Made by a program: the position numbers and the translations under genes. 64,000 nucleotides of DNA from the NCBI GenBank assembly GCA_022548915.1, contig JAKZES010000002.1, positions 1-64,000 on the forward strand, read 5' to 3'. Positions 6,333 through 58,420 of the stretch are shown here, piece after piece. The stretch's first letter is position 1. Each line of letters opens with the position of its first letter. The notes below the pieces were generated by a model. The model ran no database searches, was not told where the DNA came from, and was given only the letters and a program-made list of their open reading frames with translations. Origin of the DNA: Verrucomicrobiaceae bacterium E54 (GTDB taxonomy: Bacteria > Verrucomicrobiota > Verrucomicrobiia > Verrucomicrobiales > Akkermansiaceae).

Positions 6333-6385
6333 GGCGCTTGGGTAGCCGCTTCCGCGCGCCGCGCAATGCCCAAGTCACCCCTTGG

Positions 6386-6426
6386 CACTTGGAACTTCTC
6401 ACTTGGCACTGCAAGGCGCAGCCTTG
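6386..6426 (+). repeat. Heptamer array plus GCA hairpin before upp
   Basis: Four in-register 7-bp units (CACTTGG, AACTTCT, CACTTGG, CACTGCA) at 6386-6413 run into a 6-bp hairpin with a GCA loop, CAAGGC-GCA-GCCTTG, at 6412-6426. The hairpin ends 4 nt before the upp ATG, with no Shine-Dalgarno sequence between. The same arrangement, including the 4-nt spacing, occurs before the gene at 51572, and a related copy lies inside the U32 peptidase gene. Confidence 0.75.
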
Positions 6427-6430
6427 GGTC

Positions 6431-7048
6431 ATGCTGAAGGTCGTCGATCATCCGCTGATCCAGTCGGAGCTCACCTGCCTGCGGGATCGATCCTGCCCGC
6501 CCCACGCCTTCAGGACGCACGTCCGCCGGATCGCCTCGCTGATGGTCCCCGCCGTAACGGAGAACCTCGAAACCGAACCGGTCCCTTGTGAGACCCCCCT
6601 CGAGGTCACCAGCGGCGCGAGGCTCGTGCGGCCCATCGTGCTCGCTCCCATCCTGCGGGCCGGCATCGGCTTCTTCGACGGCTTTCTCGATCTCCTGCCG
6701 GAGGCCTCGACCGCCCACATCGGCCTCGCCCGCAACGAGGAAACGCTGCGCCCCGAACCCTACTATTTCAAGACCCCGCCGGAACTGCCCGAGGCCGACG
6801 TGCTCGTCCTCGACCCGATGCTGGCCACCGGCGGCTCGGCGGCCGAGGCCATCACCCGGCTCCGCGAGGCCGGTGCCCGGAACCTGATCTTCGCCTGCCT
6901 CGTCGCCGCCCCGGAGGGTGTGGCCACCCTGGAACAGGCGCACCCGGATGTGCCGATCTTCACCGCGGCCCTCGACCGCTGCCTCAACGGCAAGGGCTAC
7001 ATCCTCCCCGGTCTCGGCGACGCCGGGGACCGGATTTTCGGGACGTGA
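6431..7048 (+). CDS. upp: Uracil phosphoribosyltransferase
   Basis: 205 residues, the normal length for Upp. It salvages uracil with PRPP to make UMP in the cytosol. The PRPP-binding loop is VLVLDPMLATGGSA, the N-terminal VVDHPLIQSELTCLRD matches the family opening, and the C-terminal GYILPGLGDAGDRIFGT forms the uracil-binding end. Start ATG at 6431 gives the family N-terminus; the in-frame upstream sequence is repeat DNA. The start is preceded by a hairpin instead of a ribosome-binding site. Monocistronic, divergent from the NdpA-like gene. Confidence 0.95.
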   Translation: MLKVVDHPLIQSELTCLRDRSCPPHAFRTHVRRIASLMVPAVTENLETEPVPCETPLEVTSGARLVRPIVLAPILRAGIGFFDGFLDLLPEASTAHIGLARNEETLRPEPYYFKTPPELPEADVLVLDPMLATGGSAAEAITRLREAGARNLIFACLVAAPEGVATLEQAHPDVPIFTAALDRCLNGKGYILPGLGDAGDRIFGT

Positions 7049-11304: not shown

Positions 11305-11374
11305 ATGGAGCGCCGATTATGGAATCGGCATCTTTCCCGGTCCTGAAGATGCCGATTTCATCATCGGCGCTCCA
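11305..11374. repeat. REP-like palindrome between menA and menC
   Basis: Arms 11305-11335 and 11344-11374 are inverted copies with about three mismatches and a short loop. The left unit reads GGAG-C-GCCGAT-N6-ATCGGC, the same consensus as the units flanking the RAYT gene at 34 kb. The right arm touches the menA stop codon. A single unit recurs at 52351. Confidence 0.8.
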
Positions 11375-15440: not shown

Positions 15441-18400
15441 ATGCTCCCAAGAACCCTCGTTCTCGCCGCCACCGCCACCTTTCTCAACCACTCCCTCCAC
15501 GCCGCGCCCGACACCGTGGATAGTACCTTTGCCTCGGCGCTCTACCGCAACACCGAGAACGACTTCGGGAGTGTCGCCTCGCTGCTCGTGCTGCCGGACG
15601 GCTCCATCCTCGTCGGCTCCAACGAAATGGCGACCACGCTGGAGGCCCCGGACAACCTGCAGGCCCCCCTCCTCCGCCTCAACCCGGACGGCAGCGTGGC
15701 CGATGACTACTTCGCCGATGACGATCCTGACGGGGAAGGCGAGGGCATCGTCTTTGTCGGCAGCGGCTGGCCGGAGGTGATGGCCCTGGGCCGCCAGTCC
15801 GACGGCAAGATCATCGCCGGCGGGGTGATGACGGGCATGAATGACGGCACCACCAACGTCGTCTCGCGCAGCATCGTGCGGATCCATGCCGACGGCACCG
15901 CGGACGGCAGTTTCCAGAGCGCCGGCACCATCGGAAGCTTCAACGGTCTGAACTACATCAACCACCTCATCATTGACCCCGACGACAAGATTGTCGTCGG
16001 CGGCGGCTTCCGTGGTATCCAGAACCAGGGCGAAGGCTTCTTCACCCAACGCCAAGGTATCGCCCGCCTCAATGCCGACGGCTCGCTCGATACCGGCTTC
16101 GTCCTCGACCCGGTGGACTTCGGAATTTCACCGGGCTTTTCCAGCTCGGTCAGCATTGTGATTTACCAGGTCGGGCGCGATGCCGCCGGGAACTACTATG
16201 TGGTCGGCGAGATCTCCGGCGCCGGTTTGCCGGTTCAGGTATTCGCCCGTCTCTTCCCGGATGGCAGCCGCGACTTTTCCTTTGCCCCCGATCTGCCGGA
16301 AGCCCGCTGGAACAGTGTCGACCTGGACACCCAGGGGCGCATCACGGTGACCGGACTGGTCGATTTCAACCCCACGGTGGCTTACCGCGTCTTTGCCGAT
16401 GGCAGCATCGACAATAGTTTCAACCTCGCCATGGGATTGGGTGCCTTCCAGGCCCAGCCTTTGGAAATCGATACCGCGGGACGCTTCATTTACCGCAGCG
16501 GCGCAACGCTCGGCCGCATCCTCGCGGACGGCTCCGTCGATCCAAGCTTCACGCCCACCGCCAGCTGGGTGAACTGGACCACCTCGCCCTCCTTCAACCT
16601 CGCCACCACCGCGCCTGACGGGTCAATCTATGCGGGCGGATTTTTCGACCATGTCGAGGGCACCCCTGCGGTGAAACTCGTGCGCTTCGATGGCGACCCG
16701 GTCAGCGATGCCCTGCGCTTGGAGAATGCCGCAGTCTCGGTTGTCGAAAGTGCGGGCACGCTCTATCTCGGGGTGACGCGCGTCGGGCCCGCCGCCGGAG
16801 GGGCGACCGTCGACCTCGCCACGATCGCGGGCAGCGCCCTCGCCGGGGTGGACTTCACCACCACCAACGGCACCCTGAGCTGGGCGGCTGGCGAGACCGG
16901 CACAAGATACCTCGCCATCCCACTCATCGACAACGGCTCGACCGACGGCGACAAGAGCTTCTCCGTCAGCCTCAGCAATGCCTCCGGAGCGCCCGTCTCG
17001 GGTGCCAATCCAGCGGTGATCACCCTGGTCGACGACGAGGCTGGCCCGACCATCACCGCTCAGCCGCTCGCGCTTGAGGTGAGGGAAGGCTCCAGCGCCA
17101 CCTTCACCGTCGGAGTGAGCAGCGCCAGCCCGGTGACTTTCCAATGGCTGAAGAATGGCGACATCATCCCTGGGGCGACTGGCATCAGCTACACGATTGT
17201 CGCTGCGAGTGCTGCGGACGCCGCCAACTACGGCGTCGAAGTCACCGCCAGCGGAGTGAGCGTCACCAGCAGTGCCGCAGCTCTCACTGTGATCCCGCCC
17301 AAGGCGCTGCCGGATCCGGCATTCTCCGCGCCGAGCCTGAACTTCAGCACCTCCACGGTTTTCTCCGCCGACGGCAGCTTCCTCACCATCACCGGCAACT
17401 TCGCTACGGGCTACACCGTCACTCCCCACGCCAGCGACGGCACGCCGGGAACCGCCTGGCCGCTGATCACGACCAATGCCAACAGCGGTGGGCTCGGGCT
17501 ACTGCCGCTGCCGGACGGCAAGTTCATCGCACTTGGCGATTTCACGGTCATCAACGGCGAAAGCCGCCGCCGTATCGCCCGCTTCAATTCGGATGGCACA
17601 CTCGATACGGGCTTTGTGCCGTTTTTCAATGACGGGACTTTCCCGGTCGGTGAATTCACGGCCAACTTCAGCTTTTTCAGTGGCGTGAAAGTCGGCGAAA
17701 ACGGAGGGCTTTACGCGCTGATCAGAAGCAGCAATCAGGGCACCCGCTTCTTTAGATTCAACGAGGATGGTTCCGCTGATACCAGTTTCAACCTCGATTA
17801 CAGCTTTGGCACCAGTGGCTATCTTTATGCCGTCCACGAGCTCCCGGATGGCTCGGTTCTGATCGGATACACGGCTGGCGGTTTCGGCTCGCTGGATCGC
17901 GGCATCCGTCGGCTCCTGCCGGATGGTTCCTTCGATCCGAACTTTCCGCTCTACCCCACCTCCAGTAACGTCGCGGGTCTTCTTACAATCGATGACGACC
18001 GTTTCCTCGCGATCCACGGCAACCTGCTCACGGTGCACGACATCTCGGACGGCAGCCTGCTTGCCAGCCACAGCTTCACTGGCACGCTCACGAATATCGA
18101 GCCCTTCCGCTCGCGCTTCCTTGTGACCGGGCCCACCGCCTTCGGAGCCACGCCGCTCCCCGGCCTCGGGCTTTTCTCGCTGGATGGCTCCGTCGATGAT
18201 AACTTCCCCGGCGGCTCCGGCCCGGACGAAGACGTCACCCAAGCCAAGGTCCTCGACGACGGCAGCATTCTGGCGCGGGGCAATTTCACCACCTGGAACG
18301 GAGCCGCTGCGCCCGGCATGGTCCGCTTGTTAGTGGAGGGTGCGGAGGTCGGCTTTGCCACGCTCAGCGCCATAGTGTTGGAAAATGCCGGCCCGCTCAC

Positions 18401-21400
18401 AGTCGAACTGGTGCGCTACGGCGATGCCGGCAACGCCGCTTCGGTGCGTGTGACCAGCAGTCCGGATTCCGCCACCAGCCCGGCAGACTTTGCCACCGTC
18501 GATCAGATCATCCCGTGGGCTGCGGGCGACTCCTCACCGAAGAGCCTTTCTATCAGCCTGGTGGATGATGCCGACATCGAGGGCGATGAGACCTTCACCC
18601 TGAACCTCAGTGAGGCCAGCGGAGCGGAGGCCATTCCCGGCGCCCTGAGCGTCACCCTGCGCGATGACGATTCCCTGCCCCAGATCACCAGCCAGCCGGC
18701 CGCCGTGCAGGCGGTGCTCGGCCTTTCGGCCAGCTTCACGGTCGCGGCCACGAGCCCAACCGCACTCACTTACCAGTGGTTCAAGGACGGCAGCGAGATT
18801 CCGGGTGCCACCTCGGCGACCTACGACATCGCCAGCGTGGTCGAAGCCAGCGAGGGCACCTACAGCGTGCGCCTGACCAATGACTACGGCTTCGTCAACT
18901 CGACCGCCGCCTCCCTCACCATCATTCCCGACCCGGCCGCACTGGCACCGGGATATGTCGGTCCGGGCCTCAACAGCAGCGTCGTGGCCCTCGACTCGAC
19001 CCCGGATGGCGGGGCCGTCATCGTCGGCAACTTCACCGATGTCGGCGGAAATACGGCCATCGACCTGGTCGCCCGCGTGAACGCCGATGGCACCCTCGAC
19101 AGCAGCTTCGTCCCGCCCGTGATCGGCAGCGGCTCCGTGCTCGATGTGGCCGTGCAGCCGGATGGCAAGGTGGTCATCGTCGGCTCCTTCTCCACCGTCG
19201 GCGGCATCAGCCTGCGCGGCATGGCCCGCCTCAATGCAGACGGCTCGCTCGACACCGCCTTCGCTGCCAACGTCACCAACGGGACCAATGGCAACGCCTT
19301 CGCGGTGGACATCCTCGCCGACGGGCGCATCGCCTTCGGCGGCCGCTTCACCGCGTGGAACGGACAGACCGGGACCGGCTACGACGTGTTCGTGGCCAAT
19401 GCCGATGGCACCTACGCAGGCCGCCTTGCCCAAGGGGCCTTCCGCGACGTCAAGGCGGTCAAGGCCCTGCCCGACGGCGGCGTGCTGTTCTCTGTCGATA
19501 CCACTTCCAGTTCGACTGTGAAGGTCTTCAAATTCGGAGCCGACCTGCTCGGCCGGCCCTTCAGCTACAGCACCGGCCGCACCCGGGTCGATGCGATTGA
19601 TATCGCCGCCGACGGCGATTACCTGTTCGCCGGGAACGGGCAGGTGCTCAAGATCAATCCCGACGGCACCACCGACAGCAACGCCAGTCTCTTTTCTGCT
19701 TCCGAGGTCGCCGGGCAAATCAACGGCAAGTTTGTCGTCGCCGGCGGCACCCCGACCGGGCGGCCGGTTCGCTACCTCCCCAACGCCACTCTCGATCCCA
19801 GCTTCCTCCCCGGCACCGGCTTCAACAGCAGCGTCCAGGACCTTGCGGTCCGACTCGACGGCAAGATCTGGGCCGGCGGCAACTTCACCAGCTACAACGG
19901 CACGCCGGTGAGCTACCTTGCCCTGCTCAATGGCGACCCGGTCAACCTCGCCATCACCAGCCAGCCCGCCGCCCTCACCGTGGTCGATCCCGGCGAGGAG
20001 GTCACCCTCTCCGTGGCCGCGTTCGGGACCAGCACGATCAGCTACCAGTGGTTCAGGAATGGCATTGAAATGGTCGACGGCCCCGGTGTCTCCGGCAGCC
20101 AGACCGCCAGCCTGACGCTCAGCTCCGTGGACGACGCCGACAGCGGCAGCTATACCGTCGTCCTGACCAACACATCCGGCACCGAGACCAGCGATGCCGC
20201 CCAAGTGACGGTGCTCGGCGCACCGGAGATCCTCAGCCTGTCCGGCGATGTCAGTCAGTTGGAGGGCAATCCACTCACCCTCGAAGTCACTGCCTCAGGC
20301 GCAAGCACGCTCACCTACCAGTGGTTTCTCGACAGTGTCATCCTCCCCGGCCAGACCAGTGCGACTCTGACGATCTCCCCGGCCGGCCTCGACGACTCGG
20401 GCAGCTACACGGTCCGCGTCAGCAACTCGCTCGGTTTTGTCGACAGCGATCCAATCACCGTCACGATCTCGCCCAATGAGGCGGCGATCGCGCCGGACTG
20501 GACCGGCCCGACGGCCAACGGCACCGTCTTTGCCATCCTCCCGCTGACCAGTGGAAGCGCTCTGGTCGGAGGCAACTTCTCGTCGATCTCCGATGGGACA
20601 AACAGCTCCGGCGCAGGTCTTGCGGTGGTCAATGAGGACGGCAGCGTCGTCCCCGTGCCCGGCCTCTCCGCCACCGGCGGCACCGTGCGCGTGATCTCAC
20701 AGCAGAGCGACGGCAAGTTCCTCCTTGGCGGATCCTTCACCGCCATCAACGGCACTTCGCGTGGGCAGGTCGCGCGCCTCAATGCCGACTTCTCTCTCGA
20801 CACCGGCTTCACCCCCGACGGGGTCAACGCATTCGGTCAGGTGCGCGATATCCGGGAGGAAGCCAGCGGCTCTATCATGGTCGCCGGCGAATTCGGCAGC
20901 TACAACAACCTGCCGGACACCGCCTATGCGGTCCGCTTGACCAGCTCGGGCGCGCACGATCCAAGCTTCACCTCGAGCGCCAATTCCTGGGTCACCATGG
21001 TGCGCCCGCAAAGCGACGGCACCCTCGTGCTCGGGGGCTGGACCTTCGATTGGGCCGGCAACACCGCAGCCGACCACTTGTTCCGCGTCAGCAACAGCGG
21101 CACGGCGGTGGAGAACACGATCGTTTCCGGCTTCTTTTACGTGCGCGCTGGCACGCAATTGCCCAACGGCGACCTGCTCGTGAGTCAGGACTTTGGTTCG
21201 GCCGTGCGCCGATACAGCCTCGGTGGCACCCTCCTGCAAAGCTTCAGCGCCGGGGGTAATGTCAACGCCTTCGCCGAGGACGGTAACGGGTCTCTCCTCT
21301 TCGGTGGCACCTTTACGACCTTCGGCGGTGCTTCGAACCTCCGCATCGCCCGCGTTCTGGCCGACGGTTCGGCGGATCCGATATTCGATCCGGGCAGCGG

Positions 21401-21962
21401 CTTCGACGGCGACGTCGAGGCCCTGGCCATCGCACCCTCCGGCGGTATCTGGGTGGGTGGCGGTTTCTCCACCTACAACGGCATCCCCGCCACCAACCTG
21501 ATCCTGTTGAAGGGCGACGGCTCCGCACCCACCGATCCCTTCACGGATTTCGTCGCGGGCCTGCCCGGCGGACAGCAGGGCGAGGACGACGATCCGGATG
21601 GCGATGGCTGGGCCAACCTGGTCGAGTTCCTCTTCGGAACCGATCCCGGAAACGCCGCAACCGCCCCGGCACCCCTGTCGACCGGCAGCACCTCGACGGG
21701 TGCCTCGCTCAACAGCACCTACGGCCTCGCCCTCGACCCCGCCAAGAACTACCGCCTGGTCGAAGTCGAGATTCCAACCGACCTGCAGGGCCTGAGTGTC
21801 GCGCTGGAAGCCAGTACCGACCTCAGCTTCTCCGGCGATGCGACCGCCACGGAAGTCGGCACCCCGACCGACAACGGCACCACCGAGACCCGCCGCTACG
21901 TGATCACCCCCGCGACCGAAGACACCGCCACGCTCTTCTGGCGACTTGCCGTCACGCGATAA
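15441..21962 (+). CDS. Giant delta-60/Calx-beta/Ig surface protein
   Basis: 2173 residues with a signal peptide (1-22, ending HAA). Four blocks of delta-60 repeats (about 30-420, 623-965, 1166-1500, 1680-2030) show the recurring LPDGSIL...GNFT..NG...RLNADGSLDTGF pattern that builds beta-propeller-like domains. Calx-beta domains lie at about 425-530 and 970-1075. Ig-like domains lie at about 534-615, 1080-1160, 1503-1590 and 1593-1675 (TYQWFKDG type). The C-terminus has an acidic DDDPDGDGWANLVEFLFGTDP segment (thrombospondin-3-like) and a 110-residue end domain. Probably exported and surface-bound, in adhesion or matrix roles; no enzyme motif was seen. Confidence 0.92.
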   Translation: MLPRTLVLAATATFLNHSLHAAPDTVDSTFASALYRNTENDFGSVASLLVLPDGSILVGSNEMATTLEAPDNLQAPLLRLNPDGSVADDYFADDDPDGEGEGIVFVGSGWPEVMALGRQSDGKIIAGGVMTGMNDGTTNVVSRSIVRIHADGTADGSFQSAGTIGSFNGLNYINHLIIDPDDKIVVGGGFRGIQNQGEGFFTQRQGIARLNADGSLDTGFVLDPVDFGISPGFSSSVSIVIYQVGRDAAGNYYVVGEISGAGLPVQVFARLFPDGSRDFSFAPDLPEARWNSVDLDTQGRITVTGLVDFNPTVAYRVFADGSIDNSFNLAMGLGAFQAQPLEIDTAGRFIYRSGATLGRILADGSVDPSFTPTASWVNWTTSPSFNLATTAPDGSIYAGGFFDHVEGTPAVKLVRFDGDPVSDALRLENAAVSVVESAGTLYLGVTRVGPAAGGATVDLATIAGSALAGVDFTTTNGTLSWAAGETGTRYLAIPLIDNGSTDGDKSFSVSLSNASGAPVSGANPAVITLVDDEAGPTITAQPLALEVREGSSATFTVGVSSASPVTFQWLKNGDIIPGATGISYTIVAASAADAANYGVEVTASGVSVTSSAAALTVIPPKALPDPAFSAPSLNFSTSTVFSADGSFLTITGNFATGYTVTPHASDGTPGTAWPLITTNANSGGLGLLPLPDGKFIALGDFTVINGESRRRIARFNSDGTLDTGFVPFFNDGTFPVGEFTANFSFFSGVKVGENGGLYALIRSSNQGTRFFRFNEDGSADTSFNLDYSFGTSGYLYAVHELPDGSVLIGYTAGGFGSLDRGIRRLLPDGSFDPNFPLYPTSSNVAGLLTIDDDRFLAIHGNLLTVHDISDGSLLASHSFTGTLTNIEPFRSRFLVTGPTAFGATPLPGLGLFSLDGSVDDNFPGGSGPDEDVTQAKVLDDGSILARGNFTTWNGAAAPGMVRLLVEGAEVGFATLSAIVLENAGPLTVELVRYGDAGNAASVRVTSSPDSATSPADFATVDQIIPWAAGDSSPKSLSISLVDDADIEGDETFTLNLSEASGAEAIPGALSVTLRDDDSLPQITSQPAAVQAVLGLSASFTVAATSPTALTYQWFKDGSEIPGATSATYDIASVVEASEGTYSVRLTNDYGFVNSTAASLTIIPDPAALAPGYVGPGLNSSVVALDSTPDGGAVIVGNFTDVGGNTAIDLVARVNADGTLDSSFVPPVIGSGSVLDVAVQPDGKVVIVGSFSTVGGISLRGMARLNADGSLDTAFAANVTNGTNGNAFAVDILADGRIAFGGRFTAWNGQTGTGYDVFVANADGTYAGRLAQGAFRDVKAVKALPDGGVLFSVDTTSSSTVKVFKFGADLLGRPFSYSTGRTRVDAIDIAADGDYLFAGNGQVLKINPDGTTDSNASLFSASEVAGQINGKFVVAGGTPTGRPVRYLPNATLDPSFLPGTGFNSSVQDLAVRLDGKIWAGGNFTSYNGTPVSYLALLNGDPVNLAITSQPAALTVVDPGEEVTLSVAAFGTSTISYQWFRNGIEMVDGPGVSGSQTASLTLSSVDDADSGSYTVVLTNTSGTETSDAAQVTVLGAPEILSLSGDVSQLEGNPLTLEVTASGASTLTYQWFLDSVILPGQTSATLTISPAGLDDSGSYTVRVSNSLGFVDSDPITVTISPNEAAIAPDWTGPTANGTVFAILPLTSGSALVGGNFSSISDGTNSSGAGLAVVNEDGSVVPVPGLSATGGTVRVISQQSDGKFLLGGSFTAINGTSRGQVARLNADFSLDTGFTPDGVNAFGQVRDIREEASGSIMVAGEFGSYNNLPDTAYAVRLTSSGAHDPSFTSSANSWVTMVRPQSDGTLVLGGWTFDWAGNTAADHLFRVSNSGTAVENTIVSGFFYVRAGTQLPNGDLLVSQDFGSAVRRYSLGGTLLQSFSAGGNVNAFAEDGNGSLLFGGTFTTFGGASNLRIARVLADGSADPIFDPGSGFDGDVEALAIAPSGGIWVGGGFSTYNGIPATNLILLKGDGSAPTDPFTDFVAGLPGGQQGEDDDPDGDGWANLVEFLFGTDPGNAATAPAPLSTGSTSTGASLNSTYGLALDPAKNYRLVEVEIPTDLQGLSVALEASTDLSFSGDATATEVGTPTDNGTTETRRYVITPATEDTATLFWRLAVTR

Positions 21963-33984: not shown

Positions 33985-34022
33985 GGCGGGATGCTAGCAA
34001 GGAGCGATGCCTGGCCAAGAAA

Positions 34023-34090
34023 GGACCGCCGATCTCCGAATCGGCATCTTGGAGCATTGACTTGGGTGCCGATTCGGAGATCGGCGGTCC
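34023..34090. repeat. REP pair left of RAYT
   Basis: Perfect 24-bp inverted repeat (34023-34046 and 34067-34090) with a 20-nt loop. Each unit is GGAC-C-GCCGAT-N6-ATCGGC-A, so it has its own 6-bp hairpin and a 5' tetranucleotide foot. Confidence 0.9.
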
Positions 34091-34091
34091 A

Positions 34092-34667
34092 TTACTCCCG
34101 GAACGCGCTCCCGAAGGGCCACTCCTCCGGCTCCGAGCACAGGCCCGCCTTCACCGGATTGTTGCGGATGTATGCACGGGTACGGTTGAAGTGACTTTCA
34201 TCCCGGATGTAGCGATCAAAGTAGTCGCGGGCCCAGACGATTCCAGACCGTTCGAGACGGCGATTGATCTGGCGGGCACTGAAACGCTTCCAGCTCTGCA
34301 CGATGCGATCCAAGGTCGCGGCATCAGGTCGAAAGAGGACGTGAACATGATTGGGCATCACGACCCACTCCAGCAATCGATAGCGATCGCCGTCGAAATG
34401 CTGCAAGGTCTCCGCGACAATCCGGGCATGGTCCGGGTTGCGAAGCAGGCAGGCCCCTGCACCGACGTCTTCGTACCTGGCGATCTTTCTCAGCAGCTGC
34501 GTTCTCTCCTCTTCGGACTCGTAGCGAAGCGCGGATCGCCAGCGTTCGATCAAGTGCCTTGGCACCGCGTCCGCCAACCGGAAGGTCACCGCCTGAATTG
34601 CCTCTCGGAAATCCAAATGAGGTAGGTAGCCCCGTGAATACCAGCCACGCTGTTTGGCTTCGGGCAT
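34092..34667 (-). CDS. REP-associated tyrosine transposase (RAYT)
   Basis: 191 residues, Y1/HUH transposase of the RAYT group. The HUH metal motif is VVMPNHVHVLF (His107, His109), and the catalytic tyrosine is Tyr149 in WARDYFDRYIRDE. RNNPVKAGL near the C-terminus is typical of the group. These enzymes cut and rejoin single-stranded REP DNA at a tetranucleotide foot. It is flanked on both sides by REP pairs whose feet read GGAC. The gene is intact. Located between menD and uvrC. Confidence 0.93.
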   Translation of the reverse strand: MPEAKQRGWYSRGYLPHLDFREAIQAVTFRLADAVPRHLIERWRSALRYESEEERTQLLRKIARYEDVGAGACLLRNPDHARIVAETLQHFDGDRYRLLEWVVMPNHVHVLFRPDAATLDRIVQSWKRFSARQINRRLERSGIVWARDYFDRYIRDESHFNRTRAYIRNNPVKAGLCSEPEEWPFGSAFRE

Positions 34668-34720: not shown

Positions 34721-34776
34721 TGCCGATTCGGAGATCGGCGGTCCGCGCGTGAGGACCGCCGATCTCCGAATCGGCA
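34721..34776. repeat. REP pair right of RAYT
   Basis: Perfect 24-bp inverted repeat (34721-34744 and 34753-34776) with an 8-nt loop. The units are identical to those at 34023-34090 but in the opposite relative order. The right unit ends 4 nt before the uvrC stop codon. Confidence 0.9.
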
Positions 34777-38632: not shown

Positions 38633-41011
38633 ATGCGCCACACGCTGCTTCTGCTGCTTTTCCCGACCCTTCTGGCTGCCCAGGAGGTGCCTCGCGCGCA
38701 GCCGGTGGACCCGACCCTGCAGCCCAACGCACCGGTCGATTCCTTCCAGCACGGCCGGAATGTCTACGAGTCGGCCAAGCGCTCGAGCGGCCCGGTCCAG
38801 CGTGACCTCTACTTCCGCTCGATCGAGATCTTCGTCCGCTACCTCAACCAGTTCCCGAACCACCCCAACGCCGAACCGGCCTGGTGGTATCTCGGCGAGT
38901 CCTACTACGCCGTCGGCCGGGTCGAGGATGCCAAGCGCTGCTTCCACTCGCTGCTCAACCGCTTCGGTCGCGGTCGCTACGCCGCCGCCGCCGCCTACAA
39001 GCTGGCCGCCGATCATTTCAACAACCGCGAATATGCCCTCGCCGCGACTCTTTTCGACAAGCTGGCCACGATCGCGACCAAGCCGGCCGAACGCCAGCGC
39101 GGGCTCTACTACGCCGGCCTGAGCTATGAACTGATGGGCCGCGGCAAGCAGGCCCAGGGCTACTTCCGCTCGGTCATCGAGGATCCCGAACAAGAGAACC
39201 CCTACATCGACAAGGCACGCATCGGCTACGGCAAGTTGCTCGCCGCCGACGGGAAGCTGGACGACGCGCTGCGCCTGCTCGATCAGGTCGCCGTGTCCCG
39301 CGCGACGCTCAAGCTGCGCGGCGAGGCCGCCCTGCACGCCGGCGCGGTCGCCGCCCGCCTCGGCGACAGCAAACGCTCCGACCTCTACTTCGACCTCATT
39401 CTCAAGACGCCCGGGATGGAGGACTACCGCCCGGATGCCCAGATCGCCATGATGGCGGCCCGCTTCGACCAGAAGCGGTACAGCGATGTCGTCTCGATCT
39501 TCCAGCGCAGCACCGATCGCAGCGAGGGCGAACGCGAGGCCCGCCGCCTGATGCTGGCGGCCCGGGCATTCATGATGCTGGACCGCAACGCCGAAGCGCT
39601 GCCGCTTTTCCGCGAGGTCGAGCGGCTGCAGGATGCGGATTCGAAGTATGCCTTCGACGCCACCTACTACCGGCTCCTTTGCTTCTACCGCATCGAGGGT
39701 CGTCACGTGCTCGACCAGGTCGAGGCCTTCCTCCAGCTCTATCGCAAAAAGCATCCGCGCGACCCGAAGATCCACACCGCCCTGCTGATGAAGGCGGAAA
39801 CGCTCTACGCCGAAGGCAAACCGGCGGAGGCCGCGGATACCTACCGCGACATCGACCCGGCCGCGATCTCGGAGAAGAACCGCAAGGGGATGCTCTACCA
39901 GCGTGGACGCTGCCTCGCCGAGGCGGGCGATCCCGAGGGGGCGATCGGATCGCTCGACGCCTTCCTCACCGCCTATCCCGACGACGAGCGCGCCCCTCTG
40001 GCGCTCGCCGCCCGTGGCCGGGCCCTCGCCACCACCGGTGCCACCGGCAAGGCGCTCGAGGACTTCCGGAAGATCATCGAGCTCACCGAGGATCCCAAAC
40101 TCCTGAGCCTGGCCTACCTCGAGGGCGCGGCCATCCACAAGCAACGCAACGAGCTTGAAGCCATGGTCGCGCGTTACCGCGAGTTTCTGGAAAAGGTCGG
40201 GAATGCCGACTCCGCCGCCACCGCCAAGGCCTCCTACTGGGCCGGCTGGGGCATGGTGAAGACCAACCGCGGGGGCGAAGCCATCCCGTATCTTGAAAAG
40301 GCGCGCGAGCTGGCACCCGAGCTCTATTCGAAGCACGCCGGACTGCTGCTGTGCCTGGTTCATCTCGCCGAGAAAAGCCCGACTCCGCTCATCACCGAAG
40401 TCGGCAAGGCGATCGAAGGCGACTACGCCGGCGATCTGCCCGAGCCGCTCATCCGCTGGGCCGCCGACCAGGCCTTCAACGCCGACGACTTCATCAATGC
40501 GGCGCGCTTCTACGACCTCATCGCCGATGACGAAAATCCGGAACTGGTGGTCAAGGAGGTGTGGCGCTTCCTCGGCAAGGCCCGCATCCGCGCCGGCGAT
40601 CCGGCCGGGGCCCTCAGCGCCATCGAGCATGCCCTTGCCGCCGAGCAGGAACCCGCCTGGCGCGCCGACACGCTGGCCGACAAGGGCCAGGCCTTGCTCG
40701 ACCTGAAGCGCTTCGACGAAGCCACCAAGGCCGTGGAGGAAGGGCTCAGCCTGCGCCCCGAAGGCCGGGTGGGTGCCGCCCTACACCTCGTCCGGGGAGA
40801 CATCCTGATGGCCGAAGGAAAGCCCCCGGAGGAAGCCGTCCGCTCCTACATTCTCCCCGTCCAACTCATGGACGACAACGACCGCATCGTGAAACCCAAG
40901 GCGCTCTACAAGCTCATCGCCGCCCTGGAAAAAGCCGGCAAGTCGGAGGACGCCGAACAGTACCGCCAGCAACTCCAGAGCAAGTATCCCGACTGGGAAC
41001 CGGAGGAGTAA
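38633..41011 (+). CDS. Large secreted TPR protein
   Basis: 792 residues with a signal peptide (MRHTLLLLLFPTLLAAQ). It consists almost wholly of TPR-type helical repeats, e.g. EPAWWYLGESYYAVGRVEDAKRCF, and ends with EDAEQYRQQLQSKYPDW. It lies directly after exbB-exbD, an arrangement seen for periplasmic TPR partners (CpoB/YbgF-like) of Tol or Ton motors. A periplasmic scaffold linking the motor to the outer membrane is inferred. It terminates at an inverted octamer array. Confidence 0.85.
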   Translation: MRHTLLLLLFPTLLAAQEVPRAQPVDPTLQPNAPVDSFQHGRNVYESAKRSSGPVQRDLYFRSIEIFVRYLNQFPNHPNAEPAWWYLGESYYAVGRVEDAKRCFHSLLNRFGRGRYAAAAAYKLAADHFNNREYALAATLFDKLATIATKPAERQRGLYYAGLSYELMGRGKQAQGYFRSVIEDPEQENPYIDKARIGYGKLLAADGKLDDALRLLDQVAVSRATLKLRGEAALHAGAVAARLGDSKRSDLYFDLILKTPGMEDYRPDAQIAMMAARFDQKRYSDVVSIFQRSTDRSEGEREARRLMLAARAFMMLDRNAEALPLFREVERLQDADSKYAFDATYYRLLCFYRIEGRHVLDQVEAFLQLYRKKHPRDPKIHTALLMKAETLYAEGKPAEAADTYRDIDPAAISEKNRKGMLYQRGRCLAEAGDPEGAIGSLDAFLTAYPDDERAPLALAARGRALATTGATGKALEDFRKIIELTEDPKLLSLAYLEGAAIHKQRNELEAMVARYREFLEKVGNADSAATAKASYWAGWGMVKTNRGGEAIPYLEKARELAPELYSKHAGLLLCLVHLAEKSPTPLITEVGKAIEGDYAGDLPEPLIRWAADQAFNADDFINAARFYDLIADDENPELVVKEVWRFLGKARIRAGDPAGALSAIEHALAAEQEPAWRADTLADKGQALLDLKRFDEATKAVEEGLSLRPEGRVGAALHLVRGDILMAEGKPPEEAVRSYILPVQLMDDNDRIVKPKALYKLIAALEKAGKSEDAEQYRQQLQSKYPDWEPEE

Positions 41012-41107
41012 AAGCTGAAACGCTGAAATCCTGAAAAGCTGAAAACATCCGGGGAGCGCATTCCTTTGTCGAATTTCAGCGTTTCAGAATTTCAGTTTTT
41101 CAGCTTT
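41011..41107. terminator. Inverted octamer array, bidirectional terminator
   Basis: Four octamers of the form NCTGAAAN (41014-41045) are mirrored by four of the form NTTTCAGN (41073-41104). The arms can form a 32-bp stem with about five mismatches. The TAA stops of the two convergent genes (41009-41011 and 41107-41109) stand at its base. It would fold in either transcript and end in an A/T-rich tract, so a bidirectional terminator is likely. Confidence 0.65.
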
Positions 41108-42282
41108 TACCAAAGCACCCACGCCGTCCACGCGACCGAGCAGATGATCAGCCCGAGGGCGATCCCTCCGGCCACACGGTCGAGCCCGGTCTCGGTCGGT
41201 CGCCGCGCCGACGACGAACCCGGGAACACGGCAAAGGCATAGGCCATCCCGGCCAGCACGCCTCCTCCGTGCGCGCCGTTGTCGATGAAGGCAAAGCCGA
41301 CCAGGCCGATCGCCGCGGTCAGCAGCAGCCCGGCAAGCAGGCGACGCCGCGAACTCTCCGGCACCAGCGGCCGGTGCATCCACTCGAAGACGAGCAGGAA
41401 GCCGAGCATCCCGAGCAGGCCGCCCGATGCCCCGAGCGACGGTTTGTCCGGCAGAAACCAGGCCGAAGCCTCACCGCCGATCCATGCCGCCAGCACGAAG
41501 ACGAGAGGCACGTGCGGCCAGCGCACCAGCACCTCCATGCGCCGGCCCAAATAAGCCAGCGCCGAGACATTGAAGAGGAAATGGATGAGGTTGCCGTGGA
41601 GAAACGGTGCCGTGGCAAGGCGCCACCAGTCGGCCGGCCGCCCGCCTTCCTTGACCAGCCCGGCCCGGGCCACCGTCTCGCCGATGCCTCCGGGAGCCAG
41701 CCACTGGATGACCCCGATCACCCCGAATAGAATGATCAGACCGCGGGTCACCGGTGCCTTCTGGCGCATCAGCCACGTTTCGAACCGCAGCCCGATGAGG
41801 TCGGGCTCGAGTTCGCCCTCGACCCAGCTCCGGGCACGGCGCAGGCGCTTCCTGCCCTGGTACCAGGGGAAAAAACCCAGCGCGAGGAACAAGAGAATCC
41901 CGAGCCCCAGGGGACCAAAACCGAGGACCGGTTTGCCGGTGGTCAGGGAATACAGGCCGAGCAGCACGAGAAATCCCCCGAAGATCATCATCTGCCGCCG
42001 CCCTTCCTCGATCTCCCACTCGGCCCAGCGGATCCTCGCCTCCTTCAGGGCCGGGTGCAGTTCCGGCAACTCCTCGGGCAACACGAGGTGCGTGTGATCC
42101 GGGGTCCACACCAGATCCACACGCGCCCCGGCATCGTCGACGATGGCCGAGGTCAGGCCCTCAAAGCTCGAGCTGGGGTGGCGCCGCCCTTTCCGGTCCA
42201 TCCAGCCCCAACCTTCGCCCGCTCGGGGAAAGGCCTCGGGCCGGGCCCAGATCGGCAGGTCCGTTGGCGCGGGTTCGCTCAT
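41107..42282 (-). CDS. Rhomboid intramembrane serine protease
   Basis: 391 residues. A long N-terminal extension (1-180) contains two TM helices. The rhomboid core follows: HGNLIHFLFNVSALAYLG, the catalytic serine in LGASGGLLG, and the catalytic histidine in NGAHGGGVLAGM. It cleaves membrane proteins within the bilayer; the substrate is unknown. Downstream of secG, separated by an intrinsic terminator. Confidence 0.92.
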   Translation of the reverse strand: MSEPAPTDLPIWARPEAFPRAGEGWGWMDRKGRRHPSSSFEGLTSAIVDDAGARVDLVWTPDHTHLVLPEELPELHPALKEARIRWAEWEIEEGRRQMMIFGGFLVLLGLYSLTTGKPVLGFGPLGLGILLFLALGFFPWYQGRKRLRRARSWVEGELEPDLIGLRFETWLMRQKAPVTRGLIILFGVIGVIQWLAPGGIGETVARAGLVKEGGRPADWWRLATAPFLHGNLIHFLFNVSALAYLGRRMEVLVRWPHVPLVFVLAAWIGGEASAWFLPDKPSLGASGGLLGMLGFLLVFEWMHRPLVPESSRRRLLAGLLLTAAIGLVGFAFIDNGAHGGGVLAGMAYAFAVFPGSSSARRPTETGLDRVAGGIALGLIICSVAWTAWVLW

Positions 42283-51520: not shown

Positions 51521-51567
51521 CATTCGACATTTAACATTTGTCATTCGTCATTGGAGGCGCAGCCTCC
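51521..51567 (+). repeat. Heptamer array plus GCA hairpin
   Basis: Five in-register heptamers of the form CATTNNN (51521-51555) run into the hairpin GGAGGC-GCA-GCCTCC (51553-51567). The hairpin ends 4 nt before the GTG start at 51572. The architecture and spacing equal those before upp, although the heptamer sequence differs. Confidence 0.8.
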
Positions 51568-51571
51568 CCCC

Positions 51572-52318
51572 GTGACCGATCTCGAACTGACCATCCACGC
51601 CGCCCACGAGGCCGGGAAGCTGCTTCGCGAACACTTCGGCCGCCCGGCCGACGTCGACGAGGCCCACCACCACGACATCAAGCTCGCCCTCGACCGCCAG
51701 TCGCAGGACCTCATCGAGGGCATCCTTCTCGGCGCCCGCGAGGGCGACGCCTTCTACGGCGAGGAAGGCATCGGCGGGACCGCCGGGTCGAACCGTCAGT
51801 GGATCGTCGACCCCATCGACGGCACCGTGAACTTCTTCTACGGCATCCCGCACTTCTGCGTCTCGATCGCCCTGCGGGTCGATGACGAGGTGGTCCTCGG
51901 CGTCATCCACGATCCGATCGTCGGGGAGACCTGGACGGTCGAGAAGGGCGGCGAGCCGATGCTCGACGGGAAACCGATCCGCTGCAGCAGCCGCGACAAA
52001 CTCGAGGAGAGCGTGCTCTTCATCGGCTGCGGCAAGGACGAGGAGGCGCTTCGTGTCGGGCTCGAGCGCTTCCGCAAGGCCTCGGTGCGCGCCCGCAAGA
52101 TGCGCATGATGGGCTCCGCCGCGCTGGGCCTCGCCTACATCGCCACCGGGCGCCTCGACTCCTACGTCGAGTCCCGTATTTCCCTGTGGGACATCGCGGC
52201 GGGCAAACTCCTCGTCGAAGCCGCCGGCGGCAAGGTCGACCTCGGCCCCTCCGACAAGGAGGACGCCTGGTCCATCGTCGCCACCAATGGCAAAATCCCG
52301 ATTGAAGAGATTCTGTAA
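51572..52318 (+). CDS. Inositol monophosphatase family protein
   Basis: 248 residues. Metal-binding motifs: GEEG near residue 67, WIVDPIDGTVNFFYG (about 80-94), and the C-terminal SLWDIAAGKLLVEAAGG. Li-sensitive phosphatase family; the substrate may be inositol phosphate, CysQ-type PAP or histidinol phosphate and cannot be fixed from sequence alone. Starts at GTG 51572, directly after a heptamer-hairpin element and without a Shine-Dalgarno sequence; the longer in-frame ORF upstream translates only repeat DNA. Confidence 0.9.
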   Translation: MTDLELTIHAAHEAGKLLREHFGRPADVDEAHHHDIKLALDRQSQDLIEGILLGAREGDAFYGEEGIGGTAGSNRQWIVDPIDGTVNFFYGIPHFCVSIALRVDDEVVLGVIHDPIVGETWTVEKGGEPMLDGKPIRCSSRDKLEESVLFIGCGKDEEALRVGLERFRKASVRARKMRMMGSAALGLAYIATGRLDSYVESRISLWDIAAGKLLVEAAGGKVDLGPSDKEDAWSIVATNGKIPIEEIL

Positions 52319-52376: not shown

Positions 52377-52436
52377 CTCACCCCAACCCGTCGCCTCGTC
52401 AGGATAGAGAGCATCATCCACCACGCCAACCAACCA

Positions 52437-52471
52437 CCATCCACCACCCACCATCCACCATCCACCATCCC
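52437..52471 (+). repeat. Heptamer array abutting ispF start
   Basis: Five in-register heptamers of the form CCAYCCN (CCATCCA three times, CCACCCA, CCATCCC) end exactly at the base before the ispF ATG. There is no hairpin and no Shine-Dalgarno sequence. Confidence 0.8.
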
Positions 52472-55365: not shown

Positions 55366-56661
55366 TCAACCCATGAACCCGAGCGTTCCGTAGTTCTTTC
55401 CGAGGATCGGCGCCGACTTCGTGCGCAGCCATTGCTCGAGCATGGTCGAGTACACCTGACGGAAGTCGACCGTGTGCTTGAGGTCGCCCTTGTCGAGATC
55501 CGTGAGGCTCGGGTAGCGGCCGTAGAGACCGCCCTTCACCGGTGCTCCGGCCACGAACAGGCACGACGCCTTGCCGTGGTCGGTTCCGCGGCTGGCGTTC
55601 TCCGAAACCCGCCGCCCGAACTCCGAAAAGGTCATCACCGTCACCCGGTCCGCGTTGCCCTGCGTCTTGAGGTCCTCGAAGAACGCCTTCAGCGCGTCGT
55701 CGAGCTGCCCGAGCAGGCGGTCATGCGAGTTGGTCTGGCCGTTGTGGGTGTCGAAGCCGCCATGGCTCACGTAATAGACGCGCGTCGACATCCTGCCGGC
55801 GATCATCCGCGAGACCATGTTCAGGCTGCGCGCCACCGGCGTGCCCGGGTAACTCACCGTCGAGCGATGCTTCGCGGCCAGTTCGAGGATTTTCTTCGAG
55901 GAAACCCGCGCGTCCATCGCCACCCGCTCGAGGAAATCGAGGTTCGTCTCACCGACAATGCCCCCCGTCTTCGTCCCCGGCGACTCGGCGATCGAGGCGC
56001 CGTCCACCGGATCGTCGGGCGCATTGAGCGAATTGAAGAACTGCTCCGCTTCCGCCTTCTCCCCGCCGCCGTGGATCCAGCGGTAGAGCTCGGGTGAGGA
56101 AAGCGAGACGCCGGGATTCTTCATCGCACCGAAGGCCTCGGGATGCGTCTTCTTCAGCGAAATGCCCACCGTCGGATCCGCCCCCTGGCAGGCGTTGTCG
56201 AAGTAGCGACCCAGCCAGCCGGTATTCGCCCGGGCCAGTGTGTCGCCGGTCTCCCACACCGAGGTGGAGACGAAGTGCGAGCGGTTTGGATTGGGGTAGC
56301 CGACGCCCTGGACCACCGCCAGGTCCCCCTCCCGATACATCTCGCCAAGGTAGGGCATCGACGCATTCAGTCCGATCCCGTCGTCGAGCCGGATCAGATC
56401 CTTCGCATCCTTCGCCAGCTGCGGACGCGCCTTGTGGTAGGCGTCGTCCTCGAAGGGAACGACCGTATTCAAGCCGTCATTGCCGCCGGCCAGCTGGAGC
56501 ACGATCATGATCGTGTCGTCCTTTCCCGTCACCGCCTGGGTCGCCAGGTCCCGCGCGCCCAGGTGCAGGTCACCAAAGGTTCGCTCGACAAATGCCGGCA
56601 CCGTCCAGACCGACGATGCCCCCAGCATCGTCGACCGCAAGAACTCCCGTCTCGTTTTCAT
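55366..56661 (-). CDS. DUF1501 protein with Tat signal
   Basis: 431 residues. A twin-arginine signal begins TRREFLRSTMLGASS. DUF1501 signatures: QLAGGNDGLNTVVPFED, HFVSTSVWETGD, YVSHGGFDTHNGQ and FSEFGRRVSENASRGTDHG, in a sulfatase-like alkaline phosphatase fold. It is paired with the DUF1800 gene upstream (82-bp gap holding a heptamer array), the usual PVC arrangement. Export as a folded protein is likely; the biochemical role is unknown. Confidence 0.93.
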   Translation of the reverse strand: MKTRREFLRSTMLGASSVWTVPAFVERTFGDLHLGARDLATQAVTGKDDTIMIVLQLAGGNDGLNTVVPFEDDAYHKARPQLAKDAKDLIRLDDGIGLNASMPYLGEMYREGDLAVVQGVGYPNPNRSHFVSTSVWETGDTLARANTGWLGRYFDNACQGADPTVGISLKKTHPEAFGAMKNPGVSLSSPELYRWIHGGGEKAEAEQFFNSLNAPDDPVDGASIAESPGTKTGGIVGETNLDFLERVAMDARVSSKKILELAAKHRSTVSYPGTPVARSLNMVSRMIAGRMSTRVYYVSHGGFDTHNGQTNSHDRLLGQLDDALKAFFEDLKTQGNADRVTVMTFSEFGRRVSENASRGTDHGKASCLFVAGAPVKGGLYGRYPSLTDLDKGDLKHTVDFRQVYSTMLEQWLRTKSAPILGKNYGTLGFMG

Positions 56662-56675
56662 ATCTTCCTCTAAAT

Positions 56676-56710
56676 TGGAACTTGTTACTTGTTACTTGGA
56701 ACTTGCTTGC
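56676..56710 (-). repeat. Heptamer array before DUF1501 start
   Basis: On the minus strand, AGTTCCA, AGTAACA, AGTAACA and AGTTCCA run in perfect 7-bp register, with a fifth diverged unit, 14 nt before the ATG at 56661. An imperfect hairpin (CCCGCC...GGCGGG, 56710-56738) precedes it. Unit AGTTCCA recurs in the U32 gene at 60258. Confidence 0.75.
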
Positions 56711-56743
56711 CCGCCAGAGCCCGCAGGGCGACGGCGGGGAACT

Positions 56744-58300
56744 TCAACAGAGCTGGTAGTGCGGAGTGCTCATCATCAGGTGGCACAACTCCGCCACCTC
56801 GTGGTTGGTGAAGACCACGCCCTGCTTCGACCTCGCATAGTCGACGAAGGCCGCCTTCTGCTTGCTGCCGAGATCCGCCTGGAACAGCCGGTCCATCAGC
56901 GATGCCACCAGCTTCTCCGGATCCTTGCGCAGCTCCCTCGGCGCGATCGACTCGTAGTCCGGGCCGTCCCAGCGGTCCATCGAGCGCTTGACCATCCGCG
57001 CAAGCATCTGCTGGCCCGGCCGCCCACCGGCCGCGGCCATCTCCATCATCGAGTCGCCCTCGTCCTCGACCCCGTCAGCATTGACCGCTCCCTGGGTCAC
57101 CACTCCCGCCGTGTTGTAGCGGCTGAGCAGCGTGTTGGTATTGATCCATGCCCGGCCCCAGTCCCAGCCCGCGACGTTCGGCGGGTAGAAAAGCTGCTGA
57201 CCGAGCTCTCCCTGCGCGATCAGCACGAAGCCGCGCGGCAGGTCGTCGATCTCGAGTTCACGGCACATCTGCACCATGAACTGCACCGGGCTCTTGATCT
57301 GGTTCCGGATCACCGTGCCGTCGTAGAAGGCGCGCGACAGGAAAATCTCCCGAAGCACCGGCTTCAGCTGGAAACCGCCCGCCTTGAACGTGGCCGCAAG
57401 GTCCCTGACCACGGCATTCGGGGCCTCGTCTTCGACGAAGAACTGCCACAGCTTCGACGGCAGGTAGGCGGCCGCCGCATCCTGCTCGAAAATGAGATCA
57501 ATGACCTGCGGGCCGTCGAACTTCCCGGTCTTCCCGAGCACCGTCTTGGTGCCATCGTCCCACTGGCGCTTGTTGTGGTCCACCGCCCCGGTCAGGCGAT
57601 TCACCTGATATCCCGTGAACGCCCGGGCCGCTTCCTTGATGTCCTGCTCGGTGTAGTTGCCCTGGCCCAGGGTGAAGAGCTCCATCACCTCGCGCGCAAA
57701 ATTCTCGTTCGGCTTGCCCTTCTTCGAAGTCTGGGTGTCGAGGTAGAGCATCATCGCCGGGTCCGTCGCGATCGCATGGGTCAGCGCCCGGAAGTCGCCG
57801 AAGGCATGTTCGCGGAACAGCTGGTTCTGCTGCAGCATCAGCACCGGCTGCCGGACCTTCTGCGCCGAAGTGGCGAAATGGTCGTGAAGGAAGATGACCA
57901 TCTTCTCCCGCAGCGGCGCGCGCGACCGCATCATCCTCTCGAACCACCAGCCACCGGCGCTCACCAGGTTCTGCTGCTGCTCGCGGCGGATCTCCCGCTG
58001 CATCTTCTGCCGCGCTTCCAGGCGCTCCTCGGGCGTCATGTCGCGCTGCTCCAGGCGGGACTCCCGCATTTTGGCGGCGATCTCGCGGCGCTCCTCGGCG
58101 ACCCGCTCCGGCTCCGCCCACTCGGGCAGCTCGACGTCGGCGAGGGACTCGTCGGGCTCCAGGAGGCTGTCCACCGCCGCCTCCCGGCCCAACTCGTGGA
58201 TTTCCCGGATTTCGGACGGGGAGGCCCCGAATCCCGCCCGCCTCACCAGGTGGGCGGCTTCCTCAAGGGTCCAGTCGTTCTTGGCACGTGGGAGCATGAT
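56744..58300 (-). CDS. DUF1800 protein
   Basis: 518 residues. Opening WTLEEAAHLVRRAGFGASPSEI, then HDHFATS, NENFAREVMELFTLGQGNYT and PPNVAGWDWGRAWINTNTL are DUF1800 signatures. No clear signal peptide with the ATG at 58300. Residues 75-110 are charged and helical (coiled-coil-like). It is genetically paired with DUF1501; the pair is common in Verrucomicrobiota and Planctomycetota but lacks an assigned function. Divergent from the U32 gene (120-bp gap). Confidence 0.93.
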   Translation of the reverse strand: MMLPRAKNDWTLEEAAHLVRRAGFGASPSEIREIHELGREAAVDSLLEPDESLADVELPEWAEPERVAEERREIAAKMRESRLEQRDMTPEERLEARQKMQREIRREQQQNLVSAGGWWFERMMRSRAPLREKMVIFLHDHFATSAQKVRQPVLMLQQNQLFREHAFGDFRALTHAIATDPAMMLYLDTQTSKKGKPNENFAREVMELFTLGQGNYTEQDIKEAARAFTGYQVNRLTGAVDHNKRQWDDGTKTVLGKTGKFDGPQVIDLIFEQDAAAAYLPSKLWQFFVEDEAPNAVVRDLAATFKAGGFQLKPVLREIFLSRAFYDGTVIRNQIKSPVQFMVQMCRELEIDDLPRGFVLIAQGELGQQLFYPPNVAGWDWGRAWINTNTLLSRYNTAGVVTQGAVNADGVEDEGDSMMEMAAAGGRPGQQMLARMVKRSMDRWDGPDYESIAPRELRKDPEKLVASLMDRLFQADLGSKQKAAFVDYARSKQGVVFTNHEVAELCHLMMSTPHYQLC

Positions 58301-58420
58301 TTCTCGGGAGACTACGAGGAGGAGGAACCCAGGGTCACCGGGAAAGTTGCGCAAGGCCGGAAGCTTCGCGTCGATTTCTTCCGTGATTTCCCCGGCGCGC
58401 GTGGTTTCCTCCCCCAGCCG

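Follow-up and report, generated by a model that had tools for sequence, protein, structure and literature searches.

Heptamer arrays and palindromes locked to start codons in an Akkermansia-related bacterium: probable leaderless promoters that keep their geometry while their sequence changes

Why do two genes within the 64,000-nucleotide stretch of DNA analysed here (the window) start directly behind the same arrangement of heptamer repeats and a small palindrome, while the repeated sequence itself differs between them? The first-pass annotation had described two such composites, one before upp and one before a gene of the inositol monophosphatase family, each an array followed by a GCA-loop hairpin, four nucleotides and the start codon, as well as a copy with a GAA loop inside a U32 peptidase gene; all of them are present on reading (Table 1). 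The array of upp has the units CTTGGCA/CTTGGAA/CTTCTCA/CTTGGCA (6381-6410) and that of the inositol monophosphatase gene has the units CATTCGA/CATTTAA/CATTTGT/CATTCGT. Four nucleotides separate the hairpins from the ATG at position 6431 and from the GTG at position 51572, respectively. Both palindromes contain the -10-like box CAGCCT (6419-6424 and 51560-51565), 6 nucleotides before the start codon. The unit CTTCTCA (6395-6401) occupies the -35 position of upp, with its CTT 24 nucleotides before the -10 box, and TTTGTC (51537-51542) is found 17 bp before the box of the inositol monophosphatase gene. The best NCBIfam profiles for the latter gene align from residue 4-7, with all five under their cut-offs. 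The host genome is 5.9 Mb in size with a GC content of 64.5% (from an 864-kb sample), and the closest upp sequences among named records are from a 'Verrucomicrobiia bacterium' (86% identity) and an 'Akkermansiaceae bacterium' (64% identity). The former has the same sequence upstream of upp as the closest relative, G014.

Table 1 Positions of heptamer arrays, palindromes and adjoining genes in the window
Feature	Position	Strand	Basis or remark
Heptamer array, ACTTGGM/ACTTCTC type, upstream of upp	6381-6411	+	TRF period 7, reading
Palindrome CAAGGC-GCA-GCCTTG	6412-6426	+	Sequence reading
upp, uracil phosphoribosyltransferase	6431-7048	+	Pfam PF14681; NCBIfam upp model aligned from residue 1
Heptamer array, CATTCGT/CATTTGT type, before the inositol monophosphatase gene	51521-51552	+	
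Palindrome GGAGGC-GCA-GCCTCC	51553-51567	+	
Inositol monophosphatase family gene, GTG start	51572-52318	+	Pfam PF00459
CATCCAC-type array up to the ATG of ispF (52472)	52415-52471	+	No hairpin, no -12 box
ACTTGTT-type array between two minus-strand genes	56675-56705	+	5' of the DUF1501 gene and antisense to it
Array and CCGGC-GAA-GCCGG hairpin in a protein linker of the U32 peptidase (U32/DUF3656) gene	59278-59322	+	No start codon follows
Degenerate CTCCNCN heptamer array in a U32 gene linker	60101-60143	+	
ACTTGGA-type array in another U32 gene linker	60253-60290	-	Antisense to the U32 gene

The composites belong to a real repeat family of dispersed copies, as the first-pass annotation had supposed; 35 composites with an open frame were read. 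In the window, degenerate heptamer arrays with at most two mismatches occur 11 times (2.5 expected; none of 100 shuffled sequences reaches 11), and the core GGCGNAGCC on its own is mildly enriched (15 versus 8.1 expected). Across the whole genome, the strict four-unit pattern of the ACTT type has 87 matches (45 + 42) versus 13 for the reversed pattern, and the pattern of the CATT type has 22 matches versus none for its reversed control. Within 864 kb of this genome there are 22 self-similar arrays at period 7, compared to 0, 0, 4, 3, 2 and 0 at periods 4, 5, 8, 10, 11 and 13; periods 14 and 21 gave 20 and 15 arrays, and one first-order Markov simulation produced no array at period 7. In six relatives (200 kb each, 1.2 Mb pooled) the same scan found ten arrays at period 7 and 4, 1, 2, 1, 2 and 4 at periods 4, 5, 8, 10, 11 and 13: multiples of three aside, period 7 is the commonest of the periods scanned, mostly with other heptamers, but its excess is weaker than in this genome, and the 200-kb scan of one genome, G002, found no period-7 array. 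A strict AYTT pattern was matched in 30 of 38 genomes (this genome included) in very uneven numbers, but as its reversed control was also high in some of them, the pattern is no measure of the element beyond the closest relatives. What is conserved is period and architecture rather than sequence, again as proposed: the heptamers include ACTTGGA, ACTTCTC, CATTCGT, CATTTGT and others, and they differ even between orthologous genes.

The distance between palindrome and start codon is fixed. Of the 35 composites, each followed by 60 or more codons of open frame, 24 are from this genome, nine from the closest relative (G014) and two from G002. The gap between core and start codon is 6 nucleotides in 29 composites, 7 in four and 5 in two; part of the set was fetched by a hairpin-plus-start pattern, which inflates the number of composites and not the distribution of gaps within 2-12 nucleotides. 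The core loop is mostly GCA (21) or GTA (11), with one case each of GGA, CTA and ATA. The strict three-unit array pattern is present within 62 nucleotides before the core in 32 composites; one more (L144) has an array in which a single unit deviates. The GCA-loop core AGGCGCAGCCT followed by RTG within 2-12 nucleotides occurs 13 times in this genome, 12 times with a gap of 6 and once with a gap of 7, which bears out the fixed distance noted at the first two loci. In G014 there are eight such matches (gap 6 in six, gap 7 in two). The second core, AGCCNTAGGCT, has nine sites in this genome, seven with gap 6 and two with gap 5. Among the remaining 16 genomes of the genus, AGGCGCAGCCT-RTG matches are few, their gaps are scattered, and the lock was not seen except for the two copies in G002. 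Triloop hairpins as such show no enrichment before starts in general (13 of 670 genes versus 18.2 +/- 3.2 in control windows).

Where the gap is 6 nucleotides, positions -12 to -7 are occupied by the palindrome's 3' arm with the sequence (T/C)A(G/C)(G/C)CT; in 28 of the 35 composites, (T/C)AnnnT is placed exactly at -12 relative to the start codon. This position also stands out across the genome: before 668 called genes, TAnnnT is found 18 times at -12 versus 0-8 times at every other offset between -30 and -6, and the more relaxed (T/C)AnnnT 38 times versus at most 22 times elsewhere. Six of these 38 genes carry arrays and 32 are array-free. Upstream of the 32 array-free boxes, CTT is present at a distance of 24 nucleotides in ten cases (0.6 expected) and TTG at a distance of 23 nucleotides in seven cases (0.5 expected); these rank first and second among the scanned combinations of trimer and offset and together give a -35 element CTTG with a 17-bp spacer. 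Among 60 array candidates that face a start codon, (T/C)AnnnT is at -12 in 20 (16 of 55 when the five candidates from hairpin-fetched loci are removed) and at any other offset between -22 and -5 in 0-3, while 34 of the 60 have no nAnnnT at -12 at all. The -35-like unit of the arrays is 16-18 bp upstream of the box, with variable spacer. By reading, the unit at this distance is usually the variant CTTCTCA in arrays of the ACTT type, whose TTCTCA matches TTGACA at only four of six positions, and mostly CATTTGT, CATTTAT or CATTTAA in arrays of the CATT type. The sequence at -35 distance in the composites, mostly TTCTCA or TTTGTC, is an imperfect -35 match. A reading with an ECF sigma factor and GGAACTT as -35 element was also considered, but its spacing to the box seemed not to fit (by reading, unscored).

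Bacterial leaderless genes are marked by a TANNNT motif some 12 bp ahead of the start codon (Zheng 2011, PMC3160421), and in Akkermansia muciniphila 10% of transcription start sites are leaderless by Cappable-seq (PMC4782308). Position of the -10 box, high GC content and measured leaderless transcription in Akkermansia muciniphila connect these data to our loci, whereas a heptamer array or a palindrome is not described in the parts of the two papers that we consulted. The first-pass annotation had pointed out that both genes start without a Shine-Dalgarno motif; this is true but not special to them, as Shine-Dalgarno-like 4-mers are at background level in the whole genome (before 15.5% of 672 called genes versus 17.0% of shifted control windows). 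The starts used for upp, coaD, trpC, pth, panB, purN, lpxC, pyrD and ispF have independent support, as family models align from within a few residues of them.

Which parts of the composite persist can be seen at coaD. In 16 genomes of the genus, 13 coaD orthologs have (T/C)AnnnT 5-7 nucleotides before the ATG and three have no box; nine of the 13 fit the arrangement TTGG(A/C)A-N17-CAnnnT-N6/7-ATG (partial matches to coaD and trpC, L121 and L138, are left out of the ortholog counts). The orthologs keep -35 and -10, mostly without the hairpin, and at the same place this genome (L105), G014 (L106) and G001 (L112) have arrays of three different heptamer types. The -12 box, the -35-like unit and the coaD arrangement all point to transcription from the start codon, which would place array and hairpin outside the mRNA. 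On this evidence from sequence, the composite is probably a leaderless promoter of the sigma-70 type with its -35 region in the heptamer array and its -10 box in the covarying palindrome. The housekeeping sigma factor would direct RNA polymerase to a -35-like array unit and to the (T/C)AnnnT box that the palindrome provides in its 3' arm; the RNA would begin at, or next to, the A or G of the start codon, and the ribosome would load on the 5'-terminal AUG or GUG. Arrays at promoters may be kept because one of their units sits at -35 distance.

The palindrome is retained as a palindrome, with arms that change together, even though a -10 box needs the 3' arm only. Array and nAnnnT box occur together in 26 candidates, of which 16 have at least four Watson-Crick pairs around a 3-nucleotide loop (12 of 22 without the hairpin-fetched loci), compared to two of the 32 array-free boxes. 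When the 3' arms were permuted among all 26 rows (5000 permutations, no selection for stems), five of six inner pair positions exceeded chance, with fractions of 0.0004-0.0058 (0.0018-0.0118 without the hairpin-fetched loci); the sixth is outside this test because its 3' base is fixed by the box. These fractions are from a test without palindrome selection, as selecting for at least four pairs would fix the inner four pairs by construction. One pair of orthologous loci, L242 and L253, shares the GCA loop while the two stems are completely different. If the mRNA is leaderless, the palindrome cannot be an RNA hairpin and would have to be a feature of the DNA that may aid local melting or hairpin extrusion; alternatively, it could have arisen incidentally, through hairpin-templated mutation while the promoter DNA is single-stranded. 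The promoter reading as such leaves the retention of the 5' arm unexplained.

A precedent for a hairpin in promoter DNA comes from the early promoters of the phage N4 virion RNA polymerase, which have a DNA hairpin with a 3-base loop (5'G, 3'A, G:C closing pair) near -11; C(GNA)G loops extrude, and stem positions are variable if pairing is kept (PMC4496689). The parts of this work that we consulted describe a small triloop DNA hairpin of a geometry similar to ours, which is centred at -12 from the start codon (6-nucleotide gap), and 33 of our 35 core loops fit GNA. The differences are that N4 uses a phage polymerase and a hairpin on the template strand, whereas our GNA loop lies on the coding strand, along with a -35-like unit, and the polymerase is presumably that of the host. 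The likeness, close in geometry but on the other strand, is a lead and not a test. Taken at its boldest, it would suggest a class of cellular promoters that present the -10 box on a supercoil-extruded C(GNA)G DNA hairpin and take their -35 from an interchangeable array made by a dedicated, sequence-independent copying of heptamers; we consider this improbable. If true, it would be a host counterpart of the N4 promoters, in which orthologous promoters swap sequence and keep geometry.

Arrays are not confined to promoter positions. With genes, and most starts, taken from a home-made gene caller, 60 ACTT-type sites were classed (of the 87 strict-pattern matches, C219:263, C255:89564 and C255:89697 are not among them): 32 point at a start codon, 17 (of the 49 intergenic sites) at the stop codon of an opposite gene and 11 are within genes. 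Between codirectional genes, sense and antisense arrays are about equally frequent (17 versus 15). Only one of 48 intergenic arrays is between convergent genes, while 8 are expected from intergenic length (p=0.003; the 49th site has no upstream neighbour in its stretch). Of the CATT type, 17 sites out of 30 loci of this genome and G014 were classed (left out were C217, C244, C252 and C255 of this genome and C93, C94 and C100 of G014): 14 point at a start codon, eight of these ending exactly 20 nucleotides before it, two face a stop codon, one of them between convergent genes, and one is in a gene. The stop-facing, in-gene and equally frequent antisense sites of the ACTT type show that an array alone does not make a promoter.

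The U32 peptidase gene illustrates the same point within coding sequence. Its linker array with the GAA-loop hairpin is absent from the same linker of the closest relative (L167), and the same linkers have other heptamer arrays in other species, of the AATCAAC, CATCAAC and CATCTCC types, and TTCGATG in G014 (15 of 18 loci gave a usable frame). Since arrays occupy antisense positions and the linkers of proteins as well, the 7-bp process is not restricted to promoters, and its use there is a subset. A separate process with a period of 7 bp (slippage, copying or conversion) would spawn and replace arrays at tolerant sites, among them antisense intergenic positions and protein linkers. The gene as a whole (56480-61015) has three heptamer-derived linkers; in some other species, U32 linkers translate into peptides with a period of 7 residues, for example NNQQSTIDN.

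Is there then any selected function, or is the composite a selfish or neutral short repeat that spreads by slippage or in a transposition-like manner, and is locked to start codons because the copied unit includes the -10/start segment? We regard this as doubtful, although it accounts for several observations. Sixteen of the 60 classed ACTT-type sites share an identical 24-mer with the internal variant unit CTTCTCA, which appears to favour copying of a unit of about 30 bp over independent slippage; copies are also found antisense and in coding positions, and different heptamers occupy the same U32 linkers in several species. A mere repeat does not explain why palindrome arms differ among copies yet stay paired, why convergent regions are avoided, or why box and start are retained at most of the ortholog pairs in which the array has changed. 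The last point is from a reading of eight genes in this genome and G014: the heptamer type was exchanged at coaD, trpC and the gene with a CEHC motif, panB and lpxC showed altered or additional units, G014 had fewer units than this genome before upp, and arrays were retained at the beta-N-acetylhexosaminidase-like gene and the gene with a PAFSTC motif. The start is kept in all eight pairs and the box in all but trpC, whose G014 ortholog retains the start and lacks the box. An unchanged array in a close relative, which the first-pass annotation had named as speaking against its own proposal of a mobile or slippage-generated element, was thus seen in two of eight pairs and not in the other six. 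Of that proposal, dispersal of the copies and gain and exchange of arrays between orthologs stand, while neither a mobility protein nor a target duplication was identified.

The first-pass annotation had further suggested that the element supplies a context for translation start. Transcription would then come from upstream, with array and hairpin in the 5' UTR, the heptamers serving as ribosome standby site or binding site for S1 and the hairpin setting the distance to the start codon. Arrays ending at a fixed distance before the start codon, a genome without Shine-Dalgarno signal and arms that covary as those of an RNA hairpin would are all in keeping with such an element. A GC-rich hairpin of 6-7 bp only 4 nucleotides before the AUG should, on the other hand, hinder loading of the 30S subunit. 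Further against it, the box at -12 with CTTG 17 bp upstream of it, seen genome-wide, is characteristic of promoters, the coaD orthologs retain -35 and -10 and mostly not the hairpin, and ACTT-type arrays are as frequent antisense as sense in codirectional pairs. We therefore find the suggested translational role unsupported: box, -35-like unit and coaD conservation point to a start of transcription, and a translational element is unlikely.

There is a precedent for a translational role in the TAACTGA repeats of marine Beggiatoaceae, for which possible roles of this kind were listed by the author (MacGregor 2015, PMC4679880). These are 7-bp direct repeats, mostly intergenic and species-specific with some in genes; many sets end a few nucleotides before a start codon without ribosome-binding site, and 'split' sets contain variant heptamers (PMC4679880). 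They resemble our arrays in being intergenic 7-bp direct repeats near starts without ribosome-binding site, with some in genes. They differ in that a single heptamer is repeated, which has stop codons in its forward frames, and in that neither a hairpin nor a -10 box is described in the parts of the paper that we consulted, whereas the arrays described here have a common period but many different heptamers, are followed by a palindrome and are spaced as would suit a leaderless promoter. As to orientation, which is preferentially forward in the TAACTGA sets, 14 of 17 sites of the CATT type face a start; of the 60 sites of the ACTT type, 32 do so, 17 face a stop and 11 are in genes. Text searches for heptamer repeats in an open-access library gave no description of the present module; the TAACTGA paper was the sole close match.

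An operator, with palindrome and/or heptamers bound by a dedicated regulator of a regulon, could explain a dyad at the -10 box, repeated sites and many targets. Both stems (as at L242 and L253) and heptamers differ among copies, unlike the site of a sequence-specific regulator, and by family models the targets come from housekeeping pathways that have no relation to one another (upp, coaD, trpC, pth, pyrD, panB, purN, lpxC), so that we consider an operator very unlikely. Membership in the REP/RAYT elements, whose hairpins have a constant GTAG or GGAG tetranucleotide at the base, is the least probable of all: the genome has 17 Y1_Tnp matches and some copies have GGAG at the hairpin base, but on reading the 35 composites we found variable flanks and stems and no constant tetranucleotide, and the Y1_Tnp gene of the window is flanked by a different repeat. 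The latter match (34158-34391, minus strand) lies between identical 25-nucleotide copies of AGGACCGCCGATCTCCGAATCGGCA (34022-34046 and 34752-34776), with related copies at 11307 and 52351, and this locus looks like a RAYT with REP-type repeats of its own.

Cyanobacterial short tandem heptanucleotide repeats (STRR) are likewise intergenic arrays of heptamers. The heptamer sets of Microcystis differ from the arrays described here in that most of them, in a small sample, are not in forward orientation to a start codon, according to the parts consulted of the work that mentions them (PMC4679880). Mobile promoters are another of the closest known systems. Those are reportedly near-identical promoter copies in front of non-homologous genes; here the architecture is kept while array and stem change in sequence, and despite the shared 24-mer core the hairpin stems diverge with compensation.

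If the leaderless promoter reading is right, dozens of copies of one module in an Akkermansia-related bacterium would resemble a switch that starts RNA at the start codon and not a signal to the ribosome. They would be promoters of conserved geometry (period 7, palindrome, 6-nucleotide gap) with a sequence that is replaced from one close relative to the next. It may then be worth re-examining, as leaderless promoters, the heptamer arrays near starts in other phyla for which translational roles have been proposed. The 7-bp-periodic mutational process, which would affect protein linkers as well as intergenic DNA, should be testable in culturable relatives.

Several other repeats were seen in the course of the analysis. 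An array of about 12 CATTCGT/CATCCGT units without hairpin (L264, from C199:23051 onward in this genome) ends 5 nucleotides from a called start. The window contains an open frame of 2173 codons (15441-21962) with many imperfect internal repeats (families D1, D2, D7, D13 and D17), a large repetitive protein. It also has two arrays of period 8, AAAAGCTG and TTTCAGCT, about 30 nucleotides apart (41010-41108). A tandem array of period 8, 'agctcact', precedes upp in G001 (L098), and other species have other sequences at this place.
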